Shown here one piece after another: positions 30,055 to 34,876 of a stretch of 64,000 nt of DNA (position 1 is the stretch's first letter; each line of letters begins with the position of its first letter). The notes beneath the pieces were generated by a model. That model worked only from the letters and a program-made list of their open reading frames with translations, had not been told where the DNA came from and did not search any database. The position numbers and the translations under genes were made by a program. Origin of the DNA: Collinsella tanakaei (lineage in GTDB: Bacteria > Actinomycetota > Coriobacteriia > Coriobacteriales > Coriobacteriaceae); assembly GCF_016900375.1 (NCBI RefSeq), contig NZ_JACJKB010000003.1, forward strand, positions 1-64,000, read 5' to 3'.

Positions 30055-31137
30055 CTATGCGTTTGCCGGCGGCTCCAGCCCCAGATGGTCGAAGGCCACC
30101 GACGTGGCAACGCGGCCCTGCGGCGTACGGACGATCAGACCTCGCTGCAGCAGGTAAGGCTCGTAGACATCCTCGAGCGTGTTGGGGTCCTCGCCCACTG
30201 CGCTCGCCAGCGTGGTCAGGCCGACGGGGCGGCCGCGGAACGTCTTGACGAGCGTCTCGAGGATGCGGATGTCCATCCAGTCCAGTCCGAGCTCGTCGAT
30301 CTCGAAGAACTCGAGCGCCTCGCGCGCGATGGGGTAATCGATATGCCCCTCGCCGCGCACCTGCGCGTAATCGCGCACGCGCTTGAGCAGACGGTTCGCC
30401 AGGCGCGGCGTACCGCGCGAGCGCGAGGCGATCTCGCAGGCGGAATCGTGATCGATCTGCACGCCGAGGATCGTCGCCGAGCGGGTCACGATCTCAGCAA
30501 GGTCGGCGATGGAGTAGTAATCGAGCCTGAACGAGATGCCGAAGCGGTCGCGCAGCGGCCCGGTGAGCATGCCCGATCGGGTCGTGGCGCCCACGAGCGT
30601 GAACCGCGGGATGTCCAGACGGATCGAGCGCGCGGCGGGACCCTTGCCGATCACGATATCGAGCGCGAAATCCTCCATCGCGGGATAGAGGATCTCTTCA
30701 ACCGAGCGGTTGAGGCGGTGGATCTCGTCGATGAACAGCACGTCGCCCGGCTGGAGGTTCGTCAGGATGGCAGCGAGGTCGCCGGTGCGGGCGATGGCCG
30801 GACCGGAGGTCGTGCGGACCTGGGCGCCCATCTCGTTGGCCACGACCGTCGCGAGCGTCGTCTTGCCGAGGCCGGGCGGGCCGGAAAAGATCACGTGGTC
30901 CAGGCACTCCCCGCGCGACTTGGCCGCCTCGATAAGAATGCGCAGGCTCTGCTTGATGTGGTCCTGACCGCAGTAGTCGTCCAGGCGCTGCGGGCGCAGC
31001 GTCCGCTCGACGTCGAGGTCCTCGGAGGTGAGGTCGCCGGTCACGAAGCGCCCGGTCTCATGGGCGGGAGCTGCAGGCGTGCGGCGCGGTGCGGCGTCGG
31101 CCCACAGGTCTACGGAGCCGTCGGCTTCCCACATCAT
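30055..31137 (-). CDS. ruvB: Holliday junction helicase RuvB
   Basis: The protein has 360 residues: Walker [10 protein letters not shown], Walker B FIDEIHR, the RuvB signature [16 protein letters not shown] and the C-terminal winged helix near [16 protein letters not shown]. It forms the hexameric AAA+ motor of branch migration with RuvA. The start (M-M-W-E-A-D) overlaps the ruvA stop by 4 bp. An N-terminal extension of about 40 residues precedes the conserved core, as in actinobacterial RuvB. Confidence 0.98.
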
Positions 31138-31751
31138 GCATCCATCCCCAACCGCTTGAGCGCACTGGCGAGCAGCTCCTCGACGCGGGCCGCGCCATCG
31201 AGACCATCGAGCGCCAGATCGGCCTCCTGTGGCGTGAAGCCCATCGAGAGCAGGGCGGCACGGGCGTCATCGAGTGCGGTGGATGCCGGCGCGCTGCCGA
31301 GCGGCAGCTGGCCGGCCGCGGGCACGTCGGCGGCAAGCAGCCCGTGGTCCTTGGCGAACACGCTCTTGAGCTCCAAGATCAGACGTTGGGCGGTTTTCTT
31401 GCCCACGCCGGGAACCGTCGCCATGCCCTTGGCATCCTCTGCCATGACCACGGTGTAGAGCTGGCCGACTGTGAACTTGGACAGCACGGCGAGCGCCAGG
31501 CGCGGACCCACGCCCGACACGGCCACAAGCCGATCGAACATGGTCCGCTCCTCCTTGGAGGCGAAGCCGAACAGCGTCATGGCATCCTCGCGAACCTGCA
31601 GGCGCGTGAACAGGCGGCATGTCTGCCCCAGCGGAGGCAGCGAGGCTGCAGTCGTTCCCGAGATGCCGACCTCGAACCCGACGCCGCCCACATCAAGCAC
31701 GGCGACGCTGGGCGAGGCCTCGACGAGGACGCCGGTAAGCAGGGTGATCAT
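31134..31751 (-). CDS. ruvA: Holliday junction DNA-binding subunit RuvA
   Basis: The protein has 205 residues: an OB-fold start ([25 protein letters not shown], shown in part), two helix-hairpin-helix motifs ([17 protein letters not shown] and [20 protein letters not shown]) and a C-terminal RuvB-binding domain of about 45 residues after an Ala/Pro linker. It overlaps ruvC at its start and ruvB at its end by ATGA, giving strict coupling of the three resolvasome subunits. Confidence 0.97.
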
Positions 31752-32272
31752 GAGTAGCCGTTTCCCCTTTCCTCCACATAGGACCAGCCGGAGAGCGCGC
31801 CGGTGCGGCGCAGGTTGGCATGGCAGATGGCGCAGGCAAGCGCGTCGGCCGCATGGTCGGGCCGTGGATCGTGATCGAGGTGCAAAAGATTGCGGACCAT
31901 ATACATCACTTGGGCCTTATCGGCCGAACCGGTGCCCACCACCGCCTGCTTGATCTGCATGGGCGTGTACTCGCCCACCTCGACACCGCACAGCGAGACC
32001 GCCACGAGCGCGGCCCCGCGGGCATGCGCGGTCGGGATGGCCGAGCGCACGTTGGCACCGAAGTAGATGCCCTCGCACGCCGCCTCGAGTGGGCGGTAGC
32101 GCTCCACGACGGCCGTCAGGTCGTCGGCGATATGCCGTAACCGGACCGCAAGGTCGCTGCCCGCAGACGTCTGGATGCACCCGTAGGCGCGGCACCGAAC
32201 CTCGCCGCGGCGCTCCTCGACGATCCCCCAGCCCGTGTTGGCGAGCCCGGGGTCGATACCCAAGATGACCAC
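31748..32272 (-). CDS. ruvC: Crossover junction endonuclease RuvC
   Basis: The protein has 174 residues: catalytic Asp in LGIDPGLANTG (about residue 7), Glu in CEGIYFGANVRSA and the C-terminal DHAADALACAI acid pair. It resolves Holliday junctions. The GTG at 32278 cannot be used because it overlaps the GGGAGG ribosome site; the GTG at 32272 is correctly spaced. A LexA box lies 26 bases upstream of this start, so the whole ruvCAB operon is probably SOS-induced. Confidence 0.96.
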   Translation of the reverse strand: MVILGIDPGLANTGWGIVEERRGEVRCRAYGCIQTSAGSDLAVRLRHIADDLTAVVERYRPLEAACEGIYFGANVRSAIPTAHARGAALVAVSLCGVEVGEYTPMQIKQAVVGTGSADKAQVMYMVRNLLHLDHDPRPDHAADALACAICHANLRRTGALSGWSYVEERGNGYS

Positions 32273-32297
32273 GAGCACCTCCCGAGCCTCGTATCTC

Positions 32298-32362: not shown

Positions 32363-34357
32363 CTAGTTCTGCGAGAAGAAGGGGTAGTGCTGGGCGATCC
32401 CTTGGGGCATCTGCCCCGGCATCATATGCCGGGCATCGCCGGGAATCTCCGGCTCGCCTGAGGACTCCATCATCTTTCTCAGCTGGCTCTCGAAGCGCAT
32501 CGCGCTCTCCCGCATGCGCCGCTGGCCCTCCTCGCTCGCAAGCTCCTGCTGCTGCTCGGGGCTCAGCCCCAACAGCTCGCCGAGAAGCCCCAGGATCTCG
32601 CCGCGCACGCGCTCGCCATGCTCCTCGCCGAGCGACGCCAGGCGCTCCTGCTCGCTTTGGACCACGTCCATCATCTGCAGCGGCTCTGCGCCCTGCCGAC
32701 CCAGATCGGACCAGCCGAGAGACGAGGGCCAGACGCGCTCGATAAACGAGCGCGCCGACACGAAGGGCGCAGGCGGCAGCATGCGGCGCCAGTGCTCGAA
32801 CCGCCGCGTGAGCAGGATGATCAGCGATGCGGCCTCGGGTGCCGTCGCGAACAGCGGCAGGTCCTCGAGCACCTGGTTTCGGTCGACATGCGCCTCGAGG
32901 ACCCCGTCGACCTGCGAGGGCTCAAGGCAGGCAAGCAGCTGGGAGATGCGCTCGCGCAGCATCGGGTCCGTGCCGCTCGCCTCGACGGCATCCAGAAGGA
33001 TGCGGTTCAAGGTGGCGTGCACCGCATCGAGCGACACGAGCGCCGGCGGGATCGCCGCCGAGGAACGGCCGCGGTAGCGGGCGAGAAACTCCAGGTAGGT
33101 CAGGTACACGTCGCCGAACGGCGCGCAGACGGCGAGCGACGCTCCCGCCCGCAGGCAGGCAGCGGGTGCCAGGGCGGCATCCGTCTTCGTGAGCGGCGAC
33201 ATGATGCTCGCATCCATCTCGTGCGCGACATCGGCCAGGTACAGCGCGTCGATGCCCGCGCGCAGGCGGCCGGCATCGCGGGCGGGCACGTCGCGGTCCA
33301 TCCAGCGCGAAACGTCGCCCTGGGCGCGCTCGACGAGACGGATCCCGAGGTTGGCCGCCAGCTGACGCACGTGCTCCATGCGCTCGCGCTCCAGCGCCTC
33401 CTGCCGCGGGGTGTACACCTCCGAGCGCTCGAAGGCCACGCCGATGACGTTGCGCGAACCGAGCGCATCGACCGCGAGCACCGCCAAAAGCGACGAGGGC
33501 AGATCCCCCTCGAGCGGCACGATGACGCGGTTGCGGCCGTCGGCCGCCAGGGTGTCGCGCACATAGAGCCGCAGCGCCTCCCAGACCCACTCCTCGCGCT
33601 GGTAGGTCGGCAGCTCGTGCTCGTCCACCGCAGGCACCACGGTGCCGCGGACGATCTCCTGCACAAGAAGGCTCTCTTCGAAGCAGGGCGCCATCGCGAC
33701 CACGCGACCGCTCTCGTCCATGACGAACGAGCCGCCGGTGTACACCACGTCATCGTACGCGCCGATCGGCGCCATGTAGGCGAGCCACACGCCCGCGCGG
33801 GCGACCGCATCGACGAAATGCCCGTCGGCCACGGCGGCAACGGCGCTCGACTGCTCGCTTTGCGCGTTGAACCCGCCCATGGGCAGGTAGACGGCAACGT
33901 CGCACCCCTTGGGCAGCTGCGGCAGATCGCGCTCGAGGTCGAGCACGACCGCCACGCGCTCCCCGGCGACATCGAACACGGGCGACTCCCAGATGCCCGG
34001 GTCGATCCGCCCGCTGCGCAGTGCCGCCAACGAGCGCAAGGGCACGACGCGACCCTCGCGCAGCAGGAACGTCTCGAGAAACGGGGTCTGCTCGACGGGC
34101 ACGACGGCGGGCACCAAGCAGGAGATGCCCGAATCCTCGAGGCGCACGGCGAGCTCGCCCAGGCAGCGCAGCATGTCGTGCATGAAGTTGGCGTACTCGA
34201 TGAGGGCCGTGGGCTGCATACCCGTGAACATCGGGGTGGGCGCGCACAGCAGCTGGGCACCCTGCTCGGCTGCCATCATCGCCTGATCGCCGATGCGCGA
34301 GCAGATGCCCTCGATATCTCCCAAGCGCACGTCGATCTGCGCAAGCGCAAGTTTCAT
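32363..34357 (-). CDS. Degenerate NAD+ synthetase-like protein (pseudoenzyme)
   Basis: The protein has 664 residues with the order of glutamine-dependent NadE: a nitrilase/CN-hydrolase-like domain (about 1-255) and a NAD-synthase-like domain (about 270-545). The active sites are lost. Where CN-hydrolases have the FPE glutamate the protein reads LCAPTPMFTG. The Cys region reads VYLPMGGFN. The PP-loop SGGxDS is replaced by PLEGDLPSS, although the flanking SLLAVLAVDALGSRNVIGVAF is preserved. A glutamine-rich C-terminal extension of about 100 residues ends in AQHYPFFSQN. It is probably a regulatory or scaffold relative of NadE. GAGGAG lies before ATG 34357. Confidence 0.75.
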   Translation of the reverse strand: MKLALAQIDVRLGDIEGICSRIGDQAMMAAEQGAQLLCAPTPMFTGMQPTALIEYANFMHDMLRCLGELAVRLEDSGISCLVPAVVPVEQTPFLETFLLREGRVVPLRSLAALRSGRIDPGIWESPVFDVAGERVAVVLDLERDLPQLPKGCDVAVYLPMGGFNAQSEQSSAVAAVADGHFVDAVARAGVWLAYMAPIGAYDDVVYTGGSFVMDESGRVVAMAPCFEESLLVQEIVRGTVVPAVDEHELPTYQREEWVWEALRLYVRDTLAADGRNRVIVPLEGDLPSSLLAVLAVDALGSRNVIGVAFERSEVYTPRQEALERERMEHVRQLAANLGIRLVERAQGDVSRWMDRDVPARDAGRLRAGIDALYLADVAHEMDASIMSPLTKTDAALAPAACLRAGASLAVCAPFGDVYLTYLEFLARYRGRSSAAIPPALVSLDAVHATLNRILLDAVEASGTDPMLRERISQLLACLEPSQVDGVLEAHVDRNQVLEDLPLFATAPEAASLIILLTRRFEHWRRMLPPAPFVSARSFIERVWPSSLGWSDLGRQGAEPLQMMDVVQSEQERLASLGEEHGERVRGEILGLLGELLGLSPEQQQELASEEGQRRMRESAMRFESQLRKMMESSGEPEIPGDARHMMPGQMPQGIAQHYPFFSQN

Positions 34358-34457
34358 CACGAGTCTCCTCGGTTCGTCGTTTCTCCCCATGATACCCGCA
34401 AAGCGTGCGGGCGCCCCAAAACTTGACGGGTCCGCCGCTGCAGGCGGCCCGACAGCA

Positions 34458-34497
34458 GAGCGCCCCGCCGCACCTCGTACGGTGCGGCGGGGCGCTC
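34458..34497. terminator. GC-rich hairpin after the superoxide reductase gene
   Basis: A 17-bp perfect stem (34458-34474/34481-34497) with a 6-base loop lies 20 bases past the stop at 34517. No U-tract is present, so it may stabilise RNA ends rather than terminate. Confidence 0.5.
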
Positions 34498-34516: not shown

Positions 34517-34876
34517 CTAGAACGAGGCGCTCCATAGGCCATGAAGGTTGCAGTAGGCGTACACGGTGCCGGTCTTGACGCCGCCGGCAAAGAACGTCGC
34601 GGGCGTCTGACCGGGCTTGAGGTAGTGGATCTCAAGGCGACCGTCGGCCTCGAGCGCGATCCACTCGATGTAGTGCTCCTCGGTCATGGGATGCTCGGTG
34701 GAACCGACCCTGGCGAACACGATGTGGCCGTCGCGCTGAAGCTCAACGGCAGGCACGTGCTTCTCGACCGCCGCGTCCACGGTGTTGGGCTCGAGCGTCT
34801 TGAAGCCCTCGGGGACCTTGCCGCCCTTCACGTCAGCCAGAAACGCGCCGTTGCCGTCGGTGTAAAACGTAGCCAT
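34517..34876 (-). CDS. Superoxide reductase (neelaredoxin type)
   Basis: The protein has 119 residues. The SOR iron site is complete: His40 in VEKHVP (with Glu38-Lys39), His62 and His68 in EHPMTEEHYI, Cys109 and His112 in YAYCNLHGLW. No desulforedoxin centre is present, so it is a one-iron enzyme with a 32-residue N-terminal lead. It reduces superoxide to peroxide without producing oxygen, as anaerobes prefer. AAGGAGA precedes ATG 34876. Monocistronic; the HTH-fused relative at 14877 might respond to the same stress. Confidence 0.93.
   Translation of the reverse strand: MATFYTDGNGAFLADVKGGKVPEGFKTLEPNTVDAAVEKHVPAVELQRDGHIVFARVGSTEHPMTEEHYIEWIALEADGRLEIHYLKPGQTPATFFAGGVKTGTVYAYCNLHGLWSASF

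Follow-up and report, generated by a model that had tools for sequence, protein, structure and literature searches.

A conserved NadE pseudoenzyme with a C-terminal F-S-x-N peptide beside ruvCAB in Coriobacteriaceae and Atopobiaceae

Introduction

Why would a relative of NAD synthetase (NadE) that lacks the residues of both of its active sites be kept next to the genes encoding RuvC, RuvA and RuvB, and what could such a protein still do? The gene that raises this question (32363..34357, minus strand; 664 residues plus a stop codon) lies in a window of 64,000 nucleotides from Collinsella tanakaei, i.e., the whole stretch of DNA that was analysed. The available text of two papers (PMC7196632, PMC3376133) distinguishes single-domain ammonia-dependent NadE enzymes from the dimeric type-2 and octameric type-1 glutamine-dependent ones, while the available text of another (PMC4403557) says nothing about the gene studied here. 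Moreover, no NadE pseudoenzyme was found in our literature search, outside of which most subscription papers fell.

Gene and Predicted Fold

The frame starts at the ATG at 34357 (N-terminus MKLALAQ). A longer ATG start is present at 34390; orthologs begin at the same place as MKLALAQ, and a GAGGAG stands ahead of the ATG at 34357. Two Pfam domains are recognized above their cut-offs, CN_hydrolase with 33.5 bits (cut-off 23.2) and NAD_synthase with 25.9 bits (cut-off 21), and the PRK13981 NAD synthase model matches with 116 bits, its curated cut-off of 479 not being reached. An AlphaFold2 model, computed from an alignment of 38 sequences (without near-identical rows and L165), has a mean pLDDT of 83, and a Foldseek search with this predicted fold places two-domain NAD synthetases on top (3n05, 4f4h and 5kha; 3n05 best, with an E of 2.1e-30). 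Pfam, model and Foldseek all point to a two-domain fold, nitrilase plus synthetase, and the original prediction of a 664-residue two-domain NadE relative agrees with the frame as well as with the modelled structure. Opposite this gene runs a 602-aa antisense open frame (32618-34426, plus strand), which is probably no gene, long shadow frames being frequent in this G+C-rich window.

Loss of Both Active Sites

The Glu, Lys and Cys residues of the glutaminase, as well as the SGGxDS, NKSE and YGD motifs, are catalytic or binding motifs of NadE. To locate them, pseudoenzymes (13 rows) were aligned with eight intact NadE from other orders of the class. On the glutaminase side (all positions on the minus strand), the alignment puts Thr41 (34235..34237) in the place of the Glu, Leu110 (34028..34030) where HKxxLPNYG has its Lys, and Asp140 (33938..33940) in the place of the Cys of the CED motif, so that nothing is left of the Glu-Lys-Cys set of PRK13981. 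On the synthetase side, LEGDLPSS (residues 282-289; 33491..33514) takes the place of the PP-loop LSGGIDSA, i.e., SGGIDS has become EGDLPS, NKSE has become TKTD and YGD is absent; neither the SGGxDS PP-loop nor the NKSE/YGD motifs of PRK13981 are retained. No shifted catalytic motif was seen in any of the 13 pseudoenzyme rows. Both losses had been claimed from the sequence of this one protein, and the alignment does not restore the catalytic residues. The glutaminase, PP-loop and YGD places are variable among the 13 pseudoenzymes and thus do not have the look of an active site newly conserved. In the old synthetase site, on the other hand, 35/35 rows share Lys391, Thr392 and Asp416.

Purifying selection and the conserved fold would also suit a protein that has kept an enzymatic activity, either through altered residues or through a new chemistry. 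We regard this as very improbable, since no new, conserved catalytic-looking motif stands out among the invariant columns, apart from Lys391 and Asp416. The kept fold and the three invariant residues could likewise be those of a protein sensing or regulating NAD metabolism, which would still bind NAD, NaAD, ATP or glutamine, or pair with the intact NadE. Against this speaks the same variability of the PP-loop, YGD and glutaminase places; moreover, the intact NadE of the genome is of another type, so that mixed oligomers look unlikely. No retained NAD chemistry was found in the pseudoenzyme, and such a role in NAD metabolism is, in our opinion, rather improbable; the NAD- or stress-related regulatory role first proposed for it finds no support here.

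That intact enzyme had to be looked for elsewhere in the genome, and it is present: contig 87 carries a frame of 776 aa that contains ICEDLW, SGGLDST and GTGDLSE. It belongs to PRK02628, the Mycobacterium tuberculosis type (840.8 bits, cut-off 473), and has 3dla as its best PDB match. The pseudoenzyme is therefore not the sole NadE of its genome. Further Pfam matches above cut-off are a GMP synthase and a fourth one lying on contig 45. A PRK02628 NadE was found in all 28 genomes tested (9 Coriobacteriaceae and 19 Atopobiaceae). This type-1 enzyme is only a distant relative of the pseudoenzyme: in contrast to it, its catalytic motifs are intact, and it forms a separate branch in the tree. The type-2 dimeric PRK13981 enzymes (3n05, 4f4h, 5kha) are alike in descent, domain order and predicted fold, but differ from the pseudoenzyme by their two active sites, by the score and by the lack of the extension with F-S-x-N described below.

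Conservation and Selection

The gene is present without inner stops in 43/43 genomes of the same genus. Single-sequence searches in our class sample (296 genomes) matched it in 52/52 Coriobacteriaceae and 77/79 Atopobiaceae, according to a hand tally in which the weak Atopobiaceae matches were only partly inspected; among the carriers are common bacteria of the gut, e.g., Collinsella aerofaciens. Regarding the remaining two Atopobiaceae, G249 was matched by profile and G092 gave no match even by profile. In the latter, a complete single-contig genome, the pseudoenzyme gene is lost, which implies that it is not indispensable. Outside the class, in a set of 149 genomes of the phylum, more than 400 bits were reached only by the seven Coriobacteriaceae/Atopobiaceae genomes, the best out-of-class genome scoring 240 bits, near the 250-251 bits of two intact enzymes of the class.

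The median dN/dS is 0.068 (249 close, non-independent pairs), compared with 0.015 for RuvC, 0.036 for RuvA and 0.099 for Dfx in the same comparison. Hence, at the sequence level, the pseudoenzyme is constrained, yet evolves faster than its ruv neighbours (dN/dS 4 times that of RuvC). The low similarity to NadE, far under the PRK13981 cut-off, might have suggested a pseudogene in decay or a diverged NadE that has been misread, but the open frame in every same-genus genome, the low dN/dS, the invariant tail and the clear alignment of the SGGIDS and CED places allow this reading to be practically dismissed. With fold and purifying selection kept and catalytic residues gone, the gene is, as judged from these alignments, a NadE pseudoenzyme devoid of both active sites. 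It thereby resembles pseudoenzymes in general, in which the fold is conserved, the catalytic residues are lost and a binding function is presumed; what sets it apart from them is that half-dead relatives and another NadE are both visible.

C-Terminal Peptide

The C-terminal extension that had been noticed from the sequence is real: it spans approximately residues 552-664 (32366..32704, minus strand), is absent from the eight intact relatives, is modelled as helices at 562-633 followed by a low-confidence tail, and ends with FSQN (32366..32377, minus strand), for which the family motif is F-S-x-N. Among orthologs, the extension varies in length and sequence, while its F-S-x-N end is constant. 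The same F, S and N are found in 35/35 pseudoenzyme rows (a count made without L010, L044 and L045, without intact rows and without half-dead ones, i.e., those with a dead glutaminase but synthetase motifs kept; see below). In an overlapping 56-row set, 55 rows end with FSxN and one with FAQN (L145). This set corresponds to 57 loci, fetched with a ten-row Coriobacteriaceae alignment and mostly from that family (50/57), minus L142 (contig end) and L165 (N-run), plus the gene of the window, and the two sets partly contain the same species. All six codons are in use for the tail Ser in the 56-row set, which argues for selection on the residue. In L165 (Olsenella phocaeensis), the N-run breaks the gene, and FSDN is visible in another frame. 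Packing of the tail on the body of its own protein was considered as a candidate and rejected, confidence there being low in two monomer models.

The motif was also searched for at the end of other genes, in its TCN-Ser form, in six genomes, for which 20 regions covering part of the matches were fetched. All the FSxN-ending open stretches of these regions but one of 163 were shorter than 70 residues, and none was gene-like. Within the genome of the window, the two other stop-ending TCN-Ser matches belong to stretches of 45 and 68 residues, and the one match to the AGY-Ser form ends with TGG, without a stop; elsewhere, an AGY-Ser match (G002:C1:1003791) falls at the pseudoenzyme of G002 itself. 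No other plausible gene end with F-S-x-N is thus left in the genome of the window.

A docking peptide is expected to be short and conserved and to follow a linker that is variable and disordered, as is the case here. The disorder of the tail in two monomer models (pLDDT 30-36) fits such a role, even though it also fits a tail docking within a dimer, or a weak alignment depth in that part of the protein. In particular, the tail might dock on its own protein or on its dimer partner, e.g., with the C-terminal Asn latching the former glutamine pocket. With its carboxylate and side-chain amide, a C-terminal Asn resembles glutamine, which that pocket binds in the intact enzyme, and the tail appears only in relatives with a dead glutaminase. 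Nonetheless, the two monomer models display no docking and the pocket motifs are variable among pseudoenzymes; we consider self-docking as distinctly unlikely.

Stepwise Descent from NadE

The PRK13981 cut-off is passed in 61/296 genomes of the class, the rows listed all being from other orders, and the eight aligned intact NadE of the class end without a C-terminal extension. Half-dead relatives were found in four basal Coriobacteriales genomes (G236, G170, G299, G294), in which the glutaminase no longer has its Glu, Lys and Cys, while SGGIDS, NKSE and YGD are kept. Similarly, G263 has a two-domain frame (660 aa) with SGGLDS and NKSE but no CED motif. A DeoC/LacD-type aldolase gene near NadE is common to G294 and to one intact locus, a single case that supports the common descent of the G294 locus. 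In G236, G299, G294 and G263 (assemblies 90-97% complete), no second NadE was found by the search that returned one in the 28 genomes mentioned above, so their half-dead copies should be working ammonia-dependent synthetases. Judging from the intact SGGIDS, NKSE and YGD, they should work like single-domain ammonia-dependent enzymes, except that they retain a dead glutaminase domain. In G170, a second NadE is present (L168).

The half-dead protein of G236 is of special interest because it has an extension, ending with IFSKN, while its synthetase site is intact, an indication that the tail preceded the loss of that site. Its gene has dfx about 0.1 kb upstream. In contrast, the tail is absent from the half-dead relatives of G170 and G299. 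G236 groups with the dead clade in the full-length tree (support 100/98), where long branches were flagged, whereas in the synthetase-domain tree the dead clade holds together (100/100) and G236 stands apart, beside long-branched PRK02628 rows (94/75); the latter placement speaks against the tail having come first. The half-dead NadE of family f6 end with FLDN (L167, in G294) and FLEN (L208, in G263), endings that may represent a variant of F-S-x-N. Finally, the f3 genomes (L199-L205, L209, L210) have NadE frames in which SGGxDS and NKSE are present and CED is absent; these frames, mostly of about 275-350 aa and limited to the synthetase part, may be trimmed forms of a half-dead ancestor.

Altogether, according to its relatives' sequences, the pseudoenzyme descends in steps from the PRK13981-type NadE of the class: intact in other orders, then with a dead glutaminase, and finally with both sites lost in Coriobacteriaceae and Atopobiaceae. 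This order of decay is based on the motifs and on the full-length tree, and the timing of the arrival of the second NadE relative to the failure of the synthetase cannot be read directly from them.

Linkage to the ruv Genes

Downstream of the pseudoenzyme gene and on the same (minus) strand lie ruvC (31748..32278), at a distance of 84 bp, ruvA (31134..31751) and ruvB (30055..31137). Upstream, at 159 bp, is dfx (34517..34876, minus strand), which encodes a desulfoferrodoxin and is a frequent neighbour (30/36 loci). The 159-nt spacer between dfx and the pseudoenzyme gene has a folding z of -4.8 and includes a 17-bp perfect G+C-rich hairpin without a U-run (34458-34497, minus strand). Our scan returned neither a promoter nor a terminator ahead of the gene, the terminator-like matches lying only within it (2 seen vs. 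1.4 expected).

The ruvCAB neighbourhood is usual in Coriobacteriaceae and Atopobiaceae. In 33/36 loci of these families, the downstream ruvC is no more than about 1 kb away from the pseudoenzyme gene; in the other three, it is either about 2.2 kb off (G221) or not found within about 5 kb (G130, G283). In a second set of loci, ruvC is directly downstream in 55/55 cases (median gap 126 bp, range 43-307). The linkage does not extend to the half-dead G236; in this genome, as in G299, G294, G170, G263, G045, G118 and G159, whose NadE is either half-dead or intact, ruvC is on another contig than NadE or at a great distance from it. Since G236 has the tail and the dfx neighbour but its ruvC on another contig, the ruv linkage is younger than the tail. 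In the f3 genome G182, RuvC has no match and RuvB only weak ones.

On gene linkage alone, the Ruv proteins are a candidate partner. The pseudoenzyme would then be a RuvABC accessory factor, which would bind RuvC, RuvA or RuvB by its tail or by its body and thereby modulate the processing of Holliday junctions. Beyond the linkage, G092 (Atopobiaceae), which lacks the pseudoenzyme gene, also lacks RuvC and RuvB; these losses are compatible with a dependence, but dfx was not found either and one deletion would explain them all. Furthermore, G236 has a tail without the linkage, the gene persists in G130 and G283, where ruvC is not nearby, and the two proteins RuvC and RuvA are evolving at a far slower pace. 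Weighing both sides, we hold an accessory role in RuvABC to be unlikely, although worth serious consideration. A related scenario, marginally less credible still, combines both histories: a second job would have been gained while the enzyme was active, another NadE would have taken over, and the protein would then have become a dedicated Holliday-junction adaptor, with F-S-x-N as a new recognition tail.

Meaning of a Probably Retired Enzyme

In our view, the pseudoenzyme is probably an NAD synthetase that has been retired from catalysis and persists as a non-catalytic binding protein, docking a partner through its tail. Under this hypothesis, the PRK13981-type NadE would have taken on a second, non-catalytic job before its catalysis was lost, i.e., showing the F-S-x-N peptide to a partner protein on a flexible linker, with the two-domain body as a scaffold, and the other NadE (PRK02628) would have freed it from NAD synthesis. 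Several observations weigh against docking: the tail is missing from G170 and G299, the f6 proteins have another ending, as does the one ortholog with FAQN, G092 does without the gene, the synthetase-domain tree separates G236 from the dead clade, and dN/dS is higher than for RuvC by a factor of 4. Of the original prediction, the conserved NadE pseudoenzyme beside ruvCAB and the intact NadE elsewhere stand, whereas the NAD- or stress-related regulatory role finds no support; the near-invariant F-S-x-N peptide and the stepwise decay had been missed.

Pseudoenzymes as such are already known, and what would be new here is one that comes from the NadE family and carries a conserved peptide at its C-terminus. 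For annotation, it serves as a warning: as it passes two Pfam cut-offs, it may be listed among the NAD synthetases. For the evolution of the family, living relatives make the order of decay readable, first the glutaminase, then a tail beside an intact synthetase site (G236), then the synthetase site itself. That a hidden second function would keep a superseded enzyme alive is a directly testable idea, in common gut bacteria.
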